Both the position numbers and the translations under genes were made by a program. The notes below the pieces were generated by a model that saw only the letters and a list, made by a program, of their open reading frames with translations, ran no database searches and had not been told where the DNA came from. Of a stretch of 20,604 nt of DNA, positions 13,481 to 19,966 are shown one piece after another; position 1 is the stretch's first letter; every line of letters begins with the position of its first letter. Source of the DNA: a virus; the IMG/VR virus record IMGVR_UViG_3300030090_002389, positions 1 through 20,604 of that record, one strand, 5' to 3'.

Positions 13481-16471
13481 ATGCCTACCAATACGACAGC
13501 TACTTCACAAACTCATAACGGTAATGGCAGTACCGCTACTTTTGCTATATCATTTTCTTTCTTAGAAAATTCTGAAGTTGATGTTACTGTTGGCGGTGTT
13601 CTTAAAACACTAGGCACTCACTACAATATTAGTGGTTCGTCAGTTACTTTTACTTCTGGCAATATTCCTCCTTCTGGTACTGCTAATATAAAATTTACTA
13701 GAGATACAAATATAAGTACAAAAAGAGTTGATTTTGAAGATGGTAGCGTTTTAACAGAAACAGATTTAGATACAAACACAGATCAAATATTATTTGCTCA
13801 ACAGGAAATTACAGATAAATTAAATGGAATTGAAGAAGGAGCTACAGCAGATCAAACAAACGCAGAGATAAGGGCAGCAGTAGAAGCAGCTAGTGATAGC
13901 AACGTGTTTACTGACGAAGATCATACAAAATTAAATAATATTGAAGACAATGCAACCGCAGATCAGACGGTAACAGAAATAAAAAGTCTTATAGCTGGTA
14001 GTCCTCTTGATGCTAGTCATCTTGCGGCAAACTCAGTTGATAGTAGTGAACTAGTAGATGGTAGTGTAGATACCTCACATTTATCTGCTGATTGCGTTAC
14101 TACAGATAAAATAGCAGACAACGCAGTTACTTCAGCTAAAATAGCAAACGGTACTATACAAGCTACAGATTTAGCAACTAATGCAGTAGCTACAGATAGA
14201 CTTCAAGATGGTGCTGTTACCACAGTTAAGATAGCAGACTCTAATGTTACAACAGGAAAGATAGCAACAGATGCAGTTACAAACGCAAAGATAGCTGACG
14301 GAGCGGTAGATACAGCACAGCTAAATGACACAGCAGTTACACAAGCTAAAATACAAGATGCTGCTATTACCGAAGCTAAAATTGCATCACAACAGGTAAC
14401 AGGCTCAAGAATAGCAAACCTAGCTGTAGGTACACCACAGATAAATAATAGTGCAGTTACAACAGATAAACTTGCAAACGGTGCGGTTACAAATGCCAAA
14501 CTAGCAGATGCAGAACTACAAACTTTAGCAGGTATGCAATCAGGTACAGCTTCTAAATTAGCTGACAGTACAGCTTTGACATCTGATATAGCAGACCTTA
14601 ACCAGTTAGATGGTATGCAAAAGGCAACAACTATAACTGATGACGATACTAAGTTTCCTACTAGTGGTGCAATCGTAGATTATGTAGCTGCACAATTAGC
14701 TCCTATTGGTGGTTTAGAAGCTATTGCAAATGAAAATTCTTTTCCTAATACACAACCACAATCAGGTGTAGTTATAAGTATTGCAGATGCAGGTGGGTTA
14801 GCAGTTAGCAGTACTGGTACTGCATCTGGTCAAACAGTAGGTGGTACGACAGTAAATATATCTGGTATTGCTACAAACTTTCGTGGTTCTAGTATTTCAG
14901 CAGGTGTTAGATTACTTGTTGTTTCTACAGGTGCAGGTCAAAACTATACATACCACAAAGCAACTTTAAAAGAAGATGATCTTGTAGCTTTAAGTGGAGA
15001 TATAAATGATTTTGGAGAAAGGTATAGGGTAGGTTCTAGTTTTCCTACAACTAATAATGACTCAGGAGATTTATTCTGGCATACAGGTTTAGGTAAGTTA
15101 TATGTTTATAACGGAACTACAAGTGCATTTGAAGAAACACAAAGTATTGGTAACTTCTTTATATCTACACTTAGCCCTGCATTTGATGGCAGTACTCAAA
15201 ACTTTACCATTACAAATGCACCTACAAATGCACAACAAATATTATTAATAATAGAAGGTGTCTTACAAAAACCTAATAGTGGTACATCTACACCAACAGA
15301 AGGTTTTGCGTTAGATGGCAGTACAGTTAAACTGGCTGCTGCACCTGCGGTTGGTGCAAGTTATCACGCAGTAGTAATGGGTTCTGCTGTAAACATTGGA
15401 ACTCCAAGCGACAACACAGTAACAACAGCAATCTTACAAAACAACTCTGTTTCGTCAGCAAAAATACAAGATGATGCAGTAACAACAGCTAAGATAGCTA
15501 GTGGTGCTGTAAATACCTCTGAACTAGCAGATGGTGGTATAACTTCAGCTAAGTTAGCTACAAACTCTGTTACTACAGCTAAGATTTCAGATGGTAATGT
15601 TACTACAGCTAAGTTAGCAAATGATGCAGTAACTGGAGCTAAGATAGCTGATGATGCTATAAATTCAGAACATATAGCTGCTGGTGCATTAGATTCAGAA
15701 CATATTGCATCTGGCACTGGGTTTCAAGTAGGTAGTAATAATATTGAAAACAATGCAGTAGTTACATCTAAAATTCAAGATGGTGCAGTTACAGGAGCAA
15801 AGATTGGAAATGGTGAAATTGACGCAGATTCAAAGCTAGTTAATAATTCAATTCTTGCAGGTAAGATTGCAAATAACGCAATAGAAACAGCAAAGATACA
15901 AAATAGTGCGGTTACTAATGATAAGATTGCATCTGGTATATCTTCTTCAAAACTTACAGGAGCTTTACCTGCCATAGATGGTTCTGCCTTAACTGGTTTA
16001 TCTGGCGGTATAACAATGGCACAAAATTGGAGATTAACGTCATCTTCACAGGGCAACCAAACACCTCTGACAAATTGGGAAGCTATTGATACATACGGAG
16101 AAGGAAATGTAGGTAGTTCTATGAGTGTAAGTAATGGAGTATTTACTTATCCCACTACAGGTAGATATTTAGTTATCTTTTTCTTAGTTGGTTATTCAGA
16201 TAGTTCTAGTCAAAATGTCATGGGTTATATAGAACATACTACTAATAATTCTAATTTCAACAATGTTGCAAATGGTCTAAATGGAATATATGATTTTAGT
16301 AACTCTTATCCGTCTTGGGCGAATACAGCAACAATGTATATGTTTAATATATCTGCTACTGGACAACAAAAAACAAGATTTATATATGGTGCTGGTCAAG
16401 GTAATGAATATGTACTAGGTAGTAGTAGTACTTCTCATACAACAGTATCATTTATTAGGTTAGCTGATTAG
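13481..16471 (+). CDS. Tail fibre: T7 gp17-type N-terminus, decapeptide repeats, C1q-like tip
   Basis: This 996-residue fibre should bind the tail by its N-terminus and the host by its tip. Residues 1-113 match the T7 fibre N-terminal domain (ATFAISFSFLENSEVDV, LTETDLDTNTDQILFAQQE). Two linker repeats of the form LN-IE--ATADQT-EI lie at 114-130 and 151-167. Residues 183-342 are sixteen decapeptides with consensus DxAVTTAKIA, and further copies fill about 642-745 and 756-820. Between them, residues about 410-640 form a module (FGERYRVGSSFPTTN, SIGNFFISTLSPAFDG) that I recall from many cyanophage and pelagiphage fibres. Residues 845-996 look like a C1q/TNF-type jelly roll: NWEAIDTYGEG, VFTYPTTGRYLVIFF and the final VSFIRLAD. 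ATG is 2 bases after the gp16 stop. T7 gp17 is shorter (553) and has a different tip. Confidence 0.93.
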   Translation: MPTNTTATSQTHNGNGSTATFAISFSFLENSEVDVTVGGVLKTLGTHYNISGSSVTFTSGNIPPSGTANIKFTRDTNISTKRVDFEDGSVLTETDLDTNTDQILFAQQEITDKLNGIEEGATADQTNAEIRAAVEAASDSNVFTDEDHTKLNNIEDNATADQTVTEIKSLIAGSPLDASHLAANSVDSSELVDGSVDTSHLSADCVTTDKIADNAVTSAKIANGTIQATDLATNAVATDRLQDGAVTTVKIADSNVTTGKIATDAVTNAKIADGAVDTAQLNDTAVTQAKIQDAAITEAKIASQQVTGSRIANLAVGTPQINNSAVTTDKLANGAVTNAKLADAELQTLAGMQSGTASKLADSTALTSDIADLNQLDGMQKATTITDDDTKFPTSGAIVDYVAAQLAPIGGLEAIANENSFPNTQPQSGVVISIADAGGLAVSSTGTASGQTVGGTTVNISGIATNFRGSSISAGVRLLVVSTGAGQNYTYHKATLKEDDLVALSGDINDFGERYRVGSSFPTTNNDSGDLFWHTGLGKLYVYNGTTSAFEETQSIGNFFISTLSPAFDGSTQNFTITNAPTNAQQILLIIEGVLQKPNSGTSTPTEGFALDGSTVKLAAAPAVGASYHAVVMGSAVNIGTPSDNTVTTAILQNNSVSSAKIQDDAVTTAKIASGAVNTSELADGGITSAKLATNSVTTAKISDGNVTTAKLANDAVTGAKIADDAINSEHIAAGALDSEHIASGTGFQVGSNNIENNAVVTSKIQDGAVTGAKIGNGEIDADSKLVNNSILAGKIANNAIETAKIQNSAVTNDKIASGISSSKLTGALPAIDGSALTGLSGGITMAQNWRLTSSSQGNQTPLTNWEAIDTYGEGNVGSSMSVSNGVFTYPTTGRYLVIFFLVGYSDSSSQNVMGYIEHTTNNSNFNNVANGLNGIYDFSNSYPSWANTATMYMFNISATGQQKTRFIYGAGQGNEYVLGSSSTSHTTVSFIRLAD
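14027..14506 (+). repeat. Fibre decapeptide array, 16 units of 30 bp
   Basis: Residues 183-342 of the fibre read as sixteen uninterrupted ten-residue units with consensus DxAVTTAKIA; the Val/Ile at position 4 and the K-I/L at positions 8-9 are nearly invariant. The DNA units of 30 bases are diverged, so the array is old or under selection at protein level. Such arrays are expected to form a trimeric shaft. Confidence 0.88.
15404..15940 (+). repeat. Second fibre decapeptide array, interrupted once
   Basis: Residues about 642-745 and 756-820 carry the same ten-residue pattern, broken by a short insert (GTGFQVGSNN) near 745-754. The array leads into SSSKLTGALPAIDGSALTGL and then the C1q-like tip. 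Confidence 0.82.
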
Positions 16472-16857: not shown

Positions 16858-18027
16858 ATGCCTTTAACACAAGTTTCATCAAGACTCATAGAGGACACTC
16901 TTAGATATGTTTTAGGTGCTAGTGGTACAAACCACTATACTTTTACAGGTAAAGGTCTTACAGGTGCAGTAAATGACCCTACGTTAACTCTTAGCAGAGG
17001 TCATACTTATATCTTTGAGAATAGATCAGGTGGACACCCTTTCTATATAAAAACCAGTATTGCTAATGGTGGTACGAATGATGCCTATAACACAGGAGTA
17101 ACAAATAATGGTGGAGGTAATGGTACGGAAATAGTATTTACAGTACCGCATGATGCACCTGATTTGTTGTACTACCAATGCAGTAGTCACAGCAGTATGG
17201 CAGGGCAGTTAAATATAGTAGGTGCTGTAACAGATGGAAGTATAACAACAGCTAAAATTGCTGATAGTGCAGTAACAAATGGTAAATTAGCTGCTGATGC
17301 TGTTACCACAGCTAAAGTTGCTAATAGTGCTATAACTAACTCAAAATTAGGTGATGATTGCGTAACAGGTTCAAGAATAGCTGATGATGCTATAAATTCA
17401 GAACACTATGTAGATGGTTCTATAGACACAGCACACATAGCTGATAGTGCAGTTACTAACGCTAAGATTGCATCTGGTATATCTTCTTCAAAGCTAACAG
17501 GAGATTTACCTGCTATTAGCGGTGCAAACCTAACAGGCATACAAGGAATACCTAGCGGTGTAATAATGCTTTGGTCTGGTGCAGCAAACGCTATACCTAC
17601 TGGATTTGTACTATGTAATGGTCAAAATGGCACTCCTAACTTAATAGACAGATTTGTTGTTGGTGCAGCTAGTGTTTATTCAGTAGGAGATACAGGTGGT
17701 TCGGCTACACATACGCTAACTGCATCTGAAATGCCATCACATAGTCATACCACACCTAACCATAATCACTCATTTAGTGGGTCTGGTAGTTCTAGCCACA
17801 CTCATGGTATTACAACTTATAGCAGTGGTAACTATAGTAGTCGTGAAATGGGTTTTCATGGTCAAGGACAAAACACTACGAATTACCCAACTAACAGTGC
17901 TACTGTAAGTCTTACAATTAGCGGTAATACAGGGTATCATTCTGGCACAACAACCAATACTGGTAGTGGCGGTTCACACAATAACTTACCTCCTTACTAT
18001 GCACTTTGCTACATAATGAAAACTTAA
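16858..18027 (+). CDS. Second fibre-like protein: cupredoxin-like head, repeat shaft, His-rich collar tip
   Basis: The 389 residues read as three parts. Residues 25-121 look like a cupredoxin: RGHTYIFENRSGGHPFYIK, then VFTVPHDAPDLLYYQCSS, with H60, C108, H111 and M114 placed as the ligands of a type 1 copper site (C-x2-H-x2-M, as in amicyanin). Residues 125-216 are the decapeptide shaft also seen in the main fibre (GSITTAKIADSAVTNGKLAA). Residues 230-389 fit a phage tail collar domain: GIPSGVIMLWSG, IPTGFVLCNGQNGTPNLIDRF, then HxH motifs at 295-297, 302-304 and 314-316, and the usual ending NLPPYYALCYIMKT. HxH motifs bind iron in the T4 gp37 tip. It should be a receptor-binding or tip protein; there is no T7 fibre N-terminal domain, so attachment must differ. 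Confidence 0.87.
   Translation: MPLTQVSSRLIEDTLRYVLGASGTNHYTFTGKGLTGAVNDPTLTLSRGHTYIFENRSGGHPFYIKTSIANGGTNDAYNTGVTNNGGGNGTEIVFTVPHDAPDLLYYQCSSHSSMAGQLNIVGAVTDGSITTAKIADSAVTNGKLAADAVTTAKVANSAITNSKLGDDCVTGSRIADDAINSEHYVDGSIDTAHIADSAVTNAKIASGISSSKLTGDLPAISGANLTGIQGIPSGVIMLWSGAANAIPTGFVLCNGQNGTPNLIDRFVVGAASVYSVGDTGGSATHTLTASEMPSHSHTTPNHNHSFSGSGSSSHTHGITTYSSGNYSSREMGFHGQGQNTTNYPTNSATVSLTISGNTGYHSGTTTNTGSGGSHNNLPPYYALCYIMKT
17377..17492 (+). repeat. Two exact DNA segments shared with the main fibre gene
   Basis: Bases 17377-17405 are identical to 15644-15672 (29 bp) and 17463-17492 to 15922-15951 (30 bp). They encode IADDAINSEH and KIASGISSSK. The order is the same in both genes but the spacing differs (278 against 86 bases), so the shaft of one gene seems to derive from the other by recombination and deletion, or the segments are kept alike by gene conversion. 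Confidence 0.9.
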
Positions 18028-18029
18028 TT

Positions 18030-18173
18030 ATGATGTTATCAAAGACATTTATTATGAAATTTTTAATCACATTTATACTGTTAACTTCAGTATCTTCTGT
18101 ATTAGCACACCCCAAGCATCATATACATGAACATGAATCTACTGACGATAAAGGTTTAGTTATTCAAGAATAG
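18030..18173 (+). CDS. Small exported His-rich peptide
   Basis: The 47 residues start MMLSKTFIMKFL and have a textbook signal peptide: positive Lys residues, the hydrophobic run FLITFILLTSVSS and a VLA|HP cleavage site after residue 26. The mature part would be only 21 residues and opens HPKHHIHEHE, five His in nine positions. No Cys follows, so it is not a lipoprotein. An inner ATG at 18054 (MKFLITF) gives an equally good signal peptide and may be the true start; neither has a Shine-Dalgarno site. The TAG stop shares one base with the GTG start of the next gene, which argues for a real gene. Function unknown: metal binding in the periplasm, or a role at lysis, are guesses. Confidence 0.6.
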   Translation: MMLSKTFIMKFLITFILLTSVSSVLAHPKHHIHEHESTDDKGLVIQE

Positions 18174-18670: not shown

Positions 18671-18902
18671 GTCTTTCTGCCGATCTCACGTTTAGGTTAA
18701 CTAACCTCTGACCTAAATTAAGTGTGCTACGAAAGACAAGGGGTTGTAGGAACCAGACCTGCTTGATCTCTCTTAAATATTGTGGGAACTTTCTTTAAGA
18801 TGAACTCAAGAATCCGTCAATGCAAAGCAACGGATTTATGAAATGCCAAATGTAAGCGGAAGCTTCAGCTCCATACCTCCTCTACAGAACGTCAGTTCCT
18901 AC
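18671..18902 (+). ncRNA. Candidate structured RNA between convergent genes
   Basis: The gap 18653-18898 has no credible gene but is dense in helices found by hand. A: 18671-18677 with 18731-18737 (7 bp). B, inside A: 18691-18697 with 18711-18717 (7 bp). C: 18762-18766 with 18806-18810, continued after a small internal loop by 18771-18777 with 18794-18800 (5+7 bp). D: 18811-18817 with 18830-18836 (7 bp), directly abutting C. F: 18858-18863 with 18868-18872 (bulged hairpin). E: 18746-18753 GTAGGAAC with 18895-18902 GTTCCTAC (8 bp), enclosing C, D and F. All are mutually compatible. The apical loop of C also holds GTGGGAAC (18782-18789), which can pair with the same 18895-18902 in place of E. 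That pairing needs a G-U on the plus strand, mildly favouring plus. I match it to no known RNA family. Confidence 0.5.
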
Positions 18903-19426
18903 TTAAATTTTTCGGGATTAGCTTTAACATAACTTCGTATATTGATTACATCATTACAGATATATGCGAACTTAGACTTAGGATTTATCATGTAACCGCT
19001 TGCGTGAAGCTGCCCACACTTCAAGATACGAACTAGCTGCTTATCATGCACTTGCTTGTCTAGTTCTTCTTTGGCTAACTCTAGCTTTACTTTTGCTAAG
19101 TCGTTACAAGTTTTATTATCTCCCAGAGGTATCATAAAACTCATTTGTAATCCCCAACCTTCGTTTATAGAATATGTTTCTTCGCCCTGTGCATCATTTC
19201 CTGTATAAAAAGGAGTTACAGCCAAAGTAGGTTGACTACAAATTAAGTTTCCAAACTGCTGTTTACCTGTCATTCCATTATTAATATTCATATTCTGGTT
19301 AATAATACTGGAATTACCAACAGCATTAGGTTGAGCCTGTACGTTTGTATCGCCTTCGGCTCTAGCTTTATTACTGACTAAAGACAGACAAAGAAGTAAT
19401 AACGCTAGTAGTGTTGATCGTGTCAT
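18899..19426 (-). CDS. Exported four-Cys protein of a marine phage family
   Basis: Starting from ATG 19426 the product has 175 residues with signal peptide MTRSTLLALLLLCLSLVSNK and cleavage after ARA (residue 23). A TTG at 19444 would add six residues but weakens the signal peptide. The mature part has an Asn/Gln-rich stretch (to about 55), then NLICSQPTLAVTPFYTGN, GWGLQMSFMIPLG near 91-103, a helical charged region, and a C-terminal LVRILKCGQL...YICNDV. Cys at 63, 107, 137 and 157 could form two disulfides after export. I recall the same layout (C...TLxxTPF.xGN, WGxQLxFMVPLD, NCxEL, CSDVV) in uncharacterised proteins of cyanophages. It overlaps the preceding gene by 56 bases in another frame. 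Function unknown; a surface or periplasmic role is implied by export. Confidence 0.8.
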   Translation of the reverse strand: MTRSTLLALLLLCLSLVSNKARAEGDTNVQAQPNAVGNSSIINQNMNINNGMTGKQQFGNLICSQPTLAVTPFYTGNDAQGEETYSINEGWGLQMSFMIPLGDNKTCNDLAKVKLELAKEELDKQVHDKQLVRILKCGQLHASGYMINPKSKFAYICNDVINIRSYVKANPEKFK

Positions 19427-19730
19427 TCTGTGTGATCTTTTCAATCATTAAACCTGATGCTCTTGAAGTCACATTTAATGACCAATCTTTTGAAGTATCT
19501 GCAACTGTAAATACTGCATCACCGCCAGAAATACCAGCAGATGCAGCTACGCTTATATTAGAACCTTCCCAAGTATTTATAGTAGACCCATATTTTTCTG
19601 TGACTACGCTGCGAGTTATGGTTTGAGTAGTGTTTTCAGTTCTATTACTTGAACCAGTAGTCCACGTTGGCACTCCGTTTGCATAACAGGGTGCAGCTAG
19701 AAACAAACCTAGTAAGAGTAGCTTTTTCAT
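19371..19730 (-). CDS. Small exported Thr/Ser-rich protein of a marine phage family
   Basis: The 119 residues start MKKLLLLGLFLAAPCYANG, a signal peptide with probable cleavage after CYA (residue 17). AAPC is a poor lipobox because of Pro before Cys. The mature part is rich in Thr, Ser and Asn and looks all-beta: TTQTITRSVVTEKYGSTI, WSLNVTSRASGLM, and a C-terminus TTSVITSLSVFSQ. I recall cyanophage proteins with the same plan (PxWTTG...TxTxT...YGxxxNxW... ending TSLSVFxQ), always next to the four-Cys exported protein encoded just downstream. Its ATG overlaps the upstream stop as ATGA (19727-19730), and its last 56 coding bases also encode the signal peptide of the next gene. Confidence 0.82.
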   Translation of the reverse strand: MKKLLLLGLFLAAPCYANGVPTWTTGSSNRTENTTQTITRSVVTEKYGSTINTWEGSNISVAASAGISGGDAVFTVADTSKDWSLNVTSRASGLMIEKITQNDTINTTSVITSLSVFSQ

Positions 19731-19966
19731 TTGATGCCTACTTTAGAGTTCTTATTATCTACTATAGTATCTTTTTTCTTTTTTATCGAGAACCCAAGTG
19801 ACGCAGTGGAAGCACTGAAAATACTTGCAATAAATGTCGGGTCAAAATCTACAATCTTTTTACCAGATGGCGGTTCATAGTATGAAAGGGATAAAAGTGT
19901 TGCCGACCACAAAAGAACGCAAACTTTAACAATGGTTTCAACTTTACTTGGTTCTTGATCTTCCAT
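19727..19966 (-). CDS. Small two-helix membrane protein, holin-like
   Basis: The 79 residues have an acidic, short N-terminus, a first membrane segment at about 12-29 (IVKVCVLLWSATLLSLSY), a short loop with PPSGKKIVDFDP, a second weaker hydrophobic segment at about 43-61 (PTFIASIFSASTASLGFSI) and a highly charged tail (KKKKDTIVDNKNSK). Size and topology match class II holins, but many small phage membrane proteins look like this and no endolysin lies near. First gene of the three-gene minus-strand group, coupled by ATGA to the next. Its ATG directly follows the T tract of a terminator hairpin, leaving no room for a Shine-Dalgarno site, which hints at leaderless translation or hairpin-controlled expression. 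Confidence 0.75.
   Translation of the reverse strand: MEDQEPSKVETIVKVCVLLWSATLLSLSYYEPPSGKKIVDFDPTFIASIFSASTASLGFSIKKKKDTIVDNKNSKVGIK

Follow-up and report, generated by a model that had tools for sequence, protein, structure and literature searches.

Rusticyanin of Acidithiobacillus ferrooxidans is a free periplasmic electron carrier with a C-x4-H-x4-M loop, whose copper ligands are H85, C138, H143, and M148. Amicyanin of Paracoccus is an exported electron carrier encoded together with methylamine dehydrogenase, and in the Hyphomicrobium copper nitrite reductase 2dv6 the N-terminal cupredoxin is part of an enzyme and not a virion protein. In known type 1 copper sites, the residue following the first histidine is usually, but not universally, Asn or Ser (Ser in rusticyanin and Asn in amicyanin), and its backbone NH bonds the sulphur of the cysteine. 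Metal sites of another kind are described in phage tail fibres, where paired histidines (HxH motifs) serve for iron, as in T4 gp37 and alterophage R22Y (PMC11705849). The protein reported here likewise has a putative metal site in a tail fibre, but in this case the predicted ligands are those of type 1 copper and belong to a cupredoxin. Our preferred reading, which we advance tentatively, is that a cupredoxin whose type-1-copper-like site is intact forms the conserved base of the fibre and would act as a metal-clamped connector and not as an electron carrier.

The stretch of DNA that we analysed, hereafter the window, is a viral contig of 20,604 bases. The virus infects the ocean cyanobacterium Prochlorococcus, and among isolates it comes nearest to phage P-SCSP2 (43% covered, 87% identity), an MPP-C cyanopodovirus (PMC9860041). 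About 870 bases on the minus strand (18899-19765) are 83% identical to P-SCSP1 phages, and no megablast match shared with these phages was found in the rest of the window. A tail fibre with a T7 gp17-type N-terminus (13481-16471, plus strand; PF03906, E 7.7e-15), which is devoid of the cupredoxin domain, is followed by a small gene of unknown function and then by a second fibre-like protein of 389 residues (16858-18027, plus strand). The latter consists of a cupredoxin domain (residues 14-122; 16897-17223, plus strand), a shaft of TAKIADSAV-type repeats matching PHROG tail-fibre repeat families (residues 123-225; 17224-17532, plus strand), and a collar-type receptor-binding tip (residues 226-389; 17533-18024, plus strand) assigned from PHROG tail-fibre matches and weak matches to PF07484 and PF21939. 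It is 92% identical to ULF50196.1 of P-SCSP2 across the cupredoxin domain. This is the single cupredoxin match in the whole record, and the gene that bears it sits among phage structural genes. Just downstream of it, positions 18054-18173 (plus strand) encode an ORF of 39 residues that begins like a signal peptide and whose mature part is rich in His (HPKHHIHEHE...). We considered this ORF as a second copper gene and rejected it, as no conserved homologue was found in the fetched loci.

The sequence-only reading of this DNA had proposed a cupredoxin pattern for the N-terminal domain, and structure prediction bears this out. AlphaFold, supplied with 47 aligned sequences from the window, viral contigs, and bacterial genomes, modelled residues 14-122 with a mean pLDDT of 90.5 and a pTM of 0.84, and the model is a Greek-key beta sandwich that matches solved cupredoxins. 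The top PDB matches identified with Foldseek are blue-copper proteins, the further hits include multicopper oxidases and a subunit of cytochrome oxidase, and all 50 structural matches listed are copper proteins of the cupredoxin superfamily. The best structural match is the N-terminal cupredoxin domain of 2dv6 (VIA-align Z 11.1, rmsd 2.1 over 95 residues), and other matches include rusticyanin (Z 9.3) and auracyanin A (Z 8.8). A single-sequence search of PDB sequences returned chance matches only, nearly all of them antibody chains. The search was therefore run with the family profile, which placed amicyanin, plastocyanin, and copper nitrite reductase first (E ~0.0004-0.002). The window fibre protein had no match to PF00127 (Copper-bind) in the Pfam search, and a second copy of the domain, in phage P-SSM2, passes the cut-off of that family (23.3 vs 21.2 bits). 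Repeated weak matches to PF25489, all below the cut-off, were observed for the window domain and for L065, L171, L176, L180, and L186; this plant At5g54830-like domain may be a distant relative of cupredoxins. The domain model also matched three BFVD entries named beta-sandwich protein (A0A481YVH3, A0A481Z6J5, and A0A481YWX9), which belong to Marseillevirus- and Pithovirus-like giant viruses.

The four candidate ligands H60, C108, H111, and M114, claimed earlier with C-x2-H-x2-M spacing, lie exactly at 17035-17199 on the plus strand (YYQCSSHSSMAG). The predicted first histidine ligand, H60 (17035-17037), stands in the context SGGHPFYI immediately ahead of strand 62-65, as in cupredoxins. C108 (17179-17181), the predicted cysteine ligand and the sole Cys of the domain, closes strand 103-108; the predicted second histidine, H111 (17188-17190), and axial methionine, M114 (17197-17199), follow in the next loop, with M114 directly before strand 115-121. 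The domain thus has the type 1 copper order His, Cys, His, Met, with the cysteine at a strand end and the other two ligands in the next loop, and the spacing has the loop length of amicyanin, as had been suggested. HHalign pairs H60, C108, H111, and M114 with rusticyanin H85, C138, H143, and M148 (the rusticyanin sequence used is identical to PDB 1cur), which puts the complete ligand set recognised earlier in register with that of a solved protein; M114 and rusticyanin M148 are each seven residues before the end of the structurally matched range. Beyond the fold, the domain's GHPFYI and LYYQC align with GHSFDI and YYYVC of rusticyanin. HMMER gave a register with amicyanin in which the first histidine is shifted by two residues because Pro is matched to Pro, and the rusticyanin alignment was preferred. 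From this alignment we infer that the four ligands would lie within bonding distance of one point, and the profile alignment together with the predicted strand order speak against an arrangement in which H60 would be far from the other three.

The residue following the first histidine is Pro61 (17038-17040, plus strand) instead of Asn or Ser. This proline is invariant in our alignments of 22 and 47 sequences and present in 97% of the ligand-agnostic set described below, in which H60 reaches 93%. Since Pro61 cannot supply the backbone NH, the spectrum and potential of the site may differ, and the predicted copper-type site is atypical for this reason.

The domain was found in 344 of 50,697 phage records, nearly all of them marine Synechococcus or Prochlorococcus phages, in line with the earlier impression that similar domains are common in marine phages. 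One Pelagibacter phage carries it at lower identity, and neither phage P-SCSP1u nor plasmids gave a match to the domain. In cyanomyoviruses it forms the C-terminus of gp9-like proteins whose N-terminus is a T4 gp9/10 domain; in other phages it is located near the N-terminus of tail fibres. Accordingly, the C-terminal domain of PHROG 677 ('baseplate wedge tail fiber protein connector', cyanomyoviruses) is the same as ours (E 3.8e-34), but there it follows a T4 gp9/10-type N-terminus, whereas the window domain starts a podovirus fibre and the T4 gp9/10 N-terminal domain (PF07880) is absent from the window fibre protein in the Pfam search. These tail-fibre and baseplate contexts support the original placement of the protein at the tail. 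In phage S-SZBM1, the domain carrier of 498 residues, which keeps all four ligands, matches in length and name S-SZBM1_206, a 498-residue protein detected in S-SZBM1 virions by mass spectrometry with nine peptides (PMC9146016); by this match to the published proteome, S-SZBM1 is a virion-proven case of a domain carrier. Cellular relatives come from marine and other bacteria and include small one-domain proteins and CHRD lipoproteins. Apparent signal peptides or lipoprotein signals, judged by eye, were found in L186, L208, and L176, and one bacterial-genome match (L188) is itself a phage gp9-type protein. The distribution suggests that many ocean phages may carry bound copper on their tails.

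In the alignments of 22 and 47 sequences, H60, C108, H111, and M114 are invariant, but these sequences were partly retrieved through the C..H..M pattern, so that these first alignments cannot answer whether the ligands are kept as a set; statistics from the pattern-retrieved loci were set aside as biased. We therefore assembled a ligand-agnostic sample by masking the four ligand columns in searches of 13 isolate genomes and by adding viral contigs drawn by the DNA of the ligand-free motif TGVTNNG. All four ligands are present in 83 of the 89 different complete copies; clustering at 70% identity gives 46 clusters, 40 intact and six with lost ligands. The remaining six copies present YSSL, SSDM, FCQL, FAVM, YATM, and AS-- at the four ligand places, the alignment of the last one ending before the final two places (the sequence that follows, LYYSSPSGTGK, holds neither His nor Met). 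Both histidines are gone in all six, the Cys in five, and the Met in three, and no copy among the 89 has lost only one histidine. The joint loss is imperfect, as one copy kept the Cys and three kept the Met. On the tree, the six losses need six changes, at least two of which are forced by well-supported branches, and the naive probability of such joint loss, with relatedness ignored, is ~1e-7. The ligand-free copies (L237, L259, L266, L310, L312, and L316) are phage proteins on long branches, and L266 has intact and ligand-free copies within one protein. Divergent partial copies (L143, L156, and L161) keep the first histidine and have no C-H-M, so that the rule of set retention applies to this family and does not extend to all distant relatives.

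These counts bear on a rather unlikely alternative in which only the fold matters, the H, C, H, and M being retained through inertia or because they pack well, and the domain holds no metal in the virion. Ligand-free copies do exist and persist in phages, the non-ligand residues Y106, P101, and P61 are equally conserved (taken singly, the ligand columns show a degree of conservation similar to, and no higher than, that of several other columns), and P61 is unusual for a copper site. On the other hand, a passive fold does not sit well with histidines that vanish together in every loss, with ligand-free copies lying on long branches as if constraint had been relaxed, or with cellular relatives some of which are stand-alone, apparently secreted cupredoxins. 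Chance is also a poor source of the pattern: shuffling the domain produces H-x35..60-C-x2-H-x2-M in ~2/10,000 trials, and homology is the stronger argument. Rare loss of ligands and joint loss of histidines are more in keeping with a single metal site than with a passive fold. The caution in the sequence-only reading that the domain may be just a fold is thus weakened. The predicted site likely binds a metal, and copper is the most likely candidate.

We then compared domain and tip across 42 orthologues. The median identity is 89% for the domain, and tips reach 23% vs 21% for a shuffled control. Because the orthologues were found through the domain, its similarity is expected, and the news lies in the unrelated tips. 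The orthologues L002-L050 range in fibre length from 348 to 685 residues, with the tip swapped and the base conserved. Fibres usually keep their virion end and vary their receptor end. Since the domain is conserved and the tips are unrelated, the domain most likely represents the attachment base of the fibre, and a metal, if present, would most likely stabilise this base. The layout of conserved base and variable tip speaks for structure or docking rather than for the sensing of redox state.

A redox use of the site is possible, if unsupported. In its specific form, copper reduced or oxidised near the host envelope would alter the fibre base and help to trigger ejection. Copper held by all four type 1 ligands is able to alternate between Cu(I) and Cu(II), and the domain probably lies at the fibre base, but nothing that we found requires a redox change and we know of no redox partner or electron path; we regard such a trigger as very unlikely, although movement of the fibre base has been proposed to open the tail in T7-like phages (PMC10575957). 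The tip offers an observation of its own, namely three HxH motifs (residues 295, 302, and 314; 17740-17805, plus strand) of the kind proposed for iron binding in tail fibres. It is conceivable that tail copper helps the phage to meet a copper-uptake protein on the host surface, as a counterpart of Trojan Horse iron, but this is the most doubtful of the explanations considered. The three motifs in the tip would agree with such a bait, yet the predicted copper site is in the conserved base and not in the variable tip, the part expected to contact the receptor, and we are aware of no such copper receptor in the host. The precedent for a bait is the Trojan Horse hypothesis itself, under which iron-binding HxH tail fibres have been proposed for marine phages (PMC11705849). 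Broader still is the notion that the tails of marine phage virions bear redox-active type 1 copper centres, some three to each fibre trimer, which would serve as a trigger at the host surface or for copper exploitation and would make ocean phages a small pool of protein-bound copper; we judge this quite improbable.

The position of the site in the conserved base, and not in the tip, also agrees with a purely structural site that would take up zinc, or some other metal, in the cytoplasm of the host, an account that we consider somewhat improbable. Virions assemble in the bacterial cytoplasm, where copper is scarce and tightly buffered, which counts against the metal-clamped copper connector as well as for zinc, and azurin produced in E. 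coli takes up zinc. Against zinc, Met is a poor zinc ligand, a His2-Cys-Met combination is the hallmark of type 1 copper, and some relatives are apparently exported to where copper is the usual metal. Under the connector that we tentatively prefer, the fibre protein would be apo or zinc-bound in the host cytoplasm and would pick up copper following lysis. The bound metal would then stiffen the loop between the final two strands and lend stability to the module, which would link the fibre to the tail or, in gp9-like proteins, the baseplate to the fibre.

In the open-access literature, we found no paper that connects cupredoxins or blue copper to phage tails, and this widespread cupredoxin of marine phage tails, with its full set of type 1 copper ligands, is apparently undescribed. 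The closest concept is the binding of iron by HxH motifs of tail fibres (PMC11705849). Viral nirK (PMC8115048) was considered as a precedent and rejected, since it is a metabolic gene and not a virion part. Our results offer a testable function for a domain whose gene annotations go no further than tail fibre, baseplate connector, or hypothetical protein. Nearly half of the cyanopodovirus reads from the surface ocean belong to the MPP-C clade (PMC9860041). Marine biogeochemistry is actively concerned with metal in phage tails, where attention has so far gone to iron (PMC11705849), and the copper-type site in the conserved fibre base, if true, would add a second metal in the very abundant phages of Prochlorococcus and Synechococcus.
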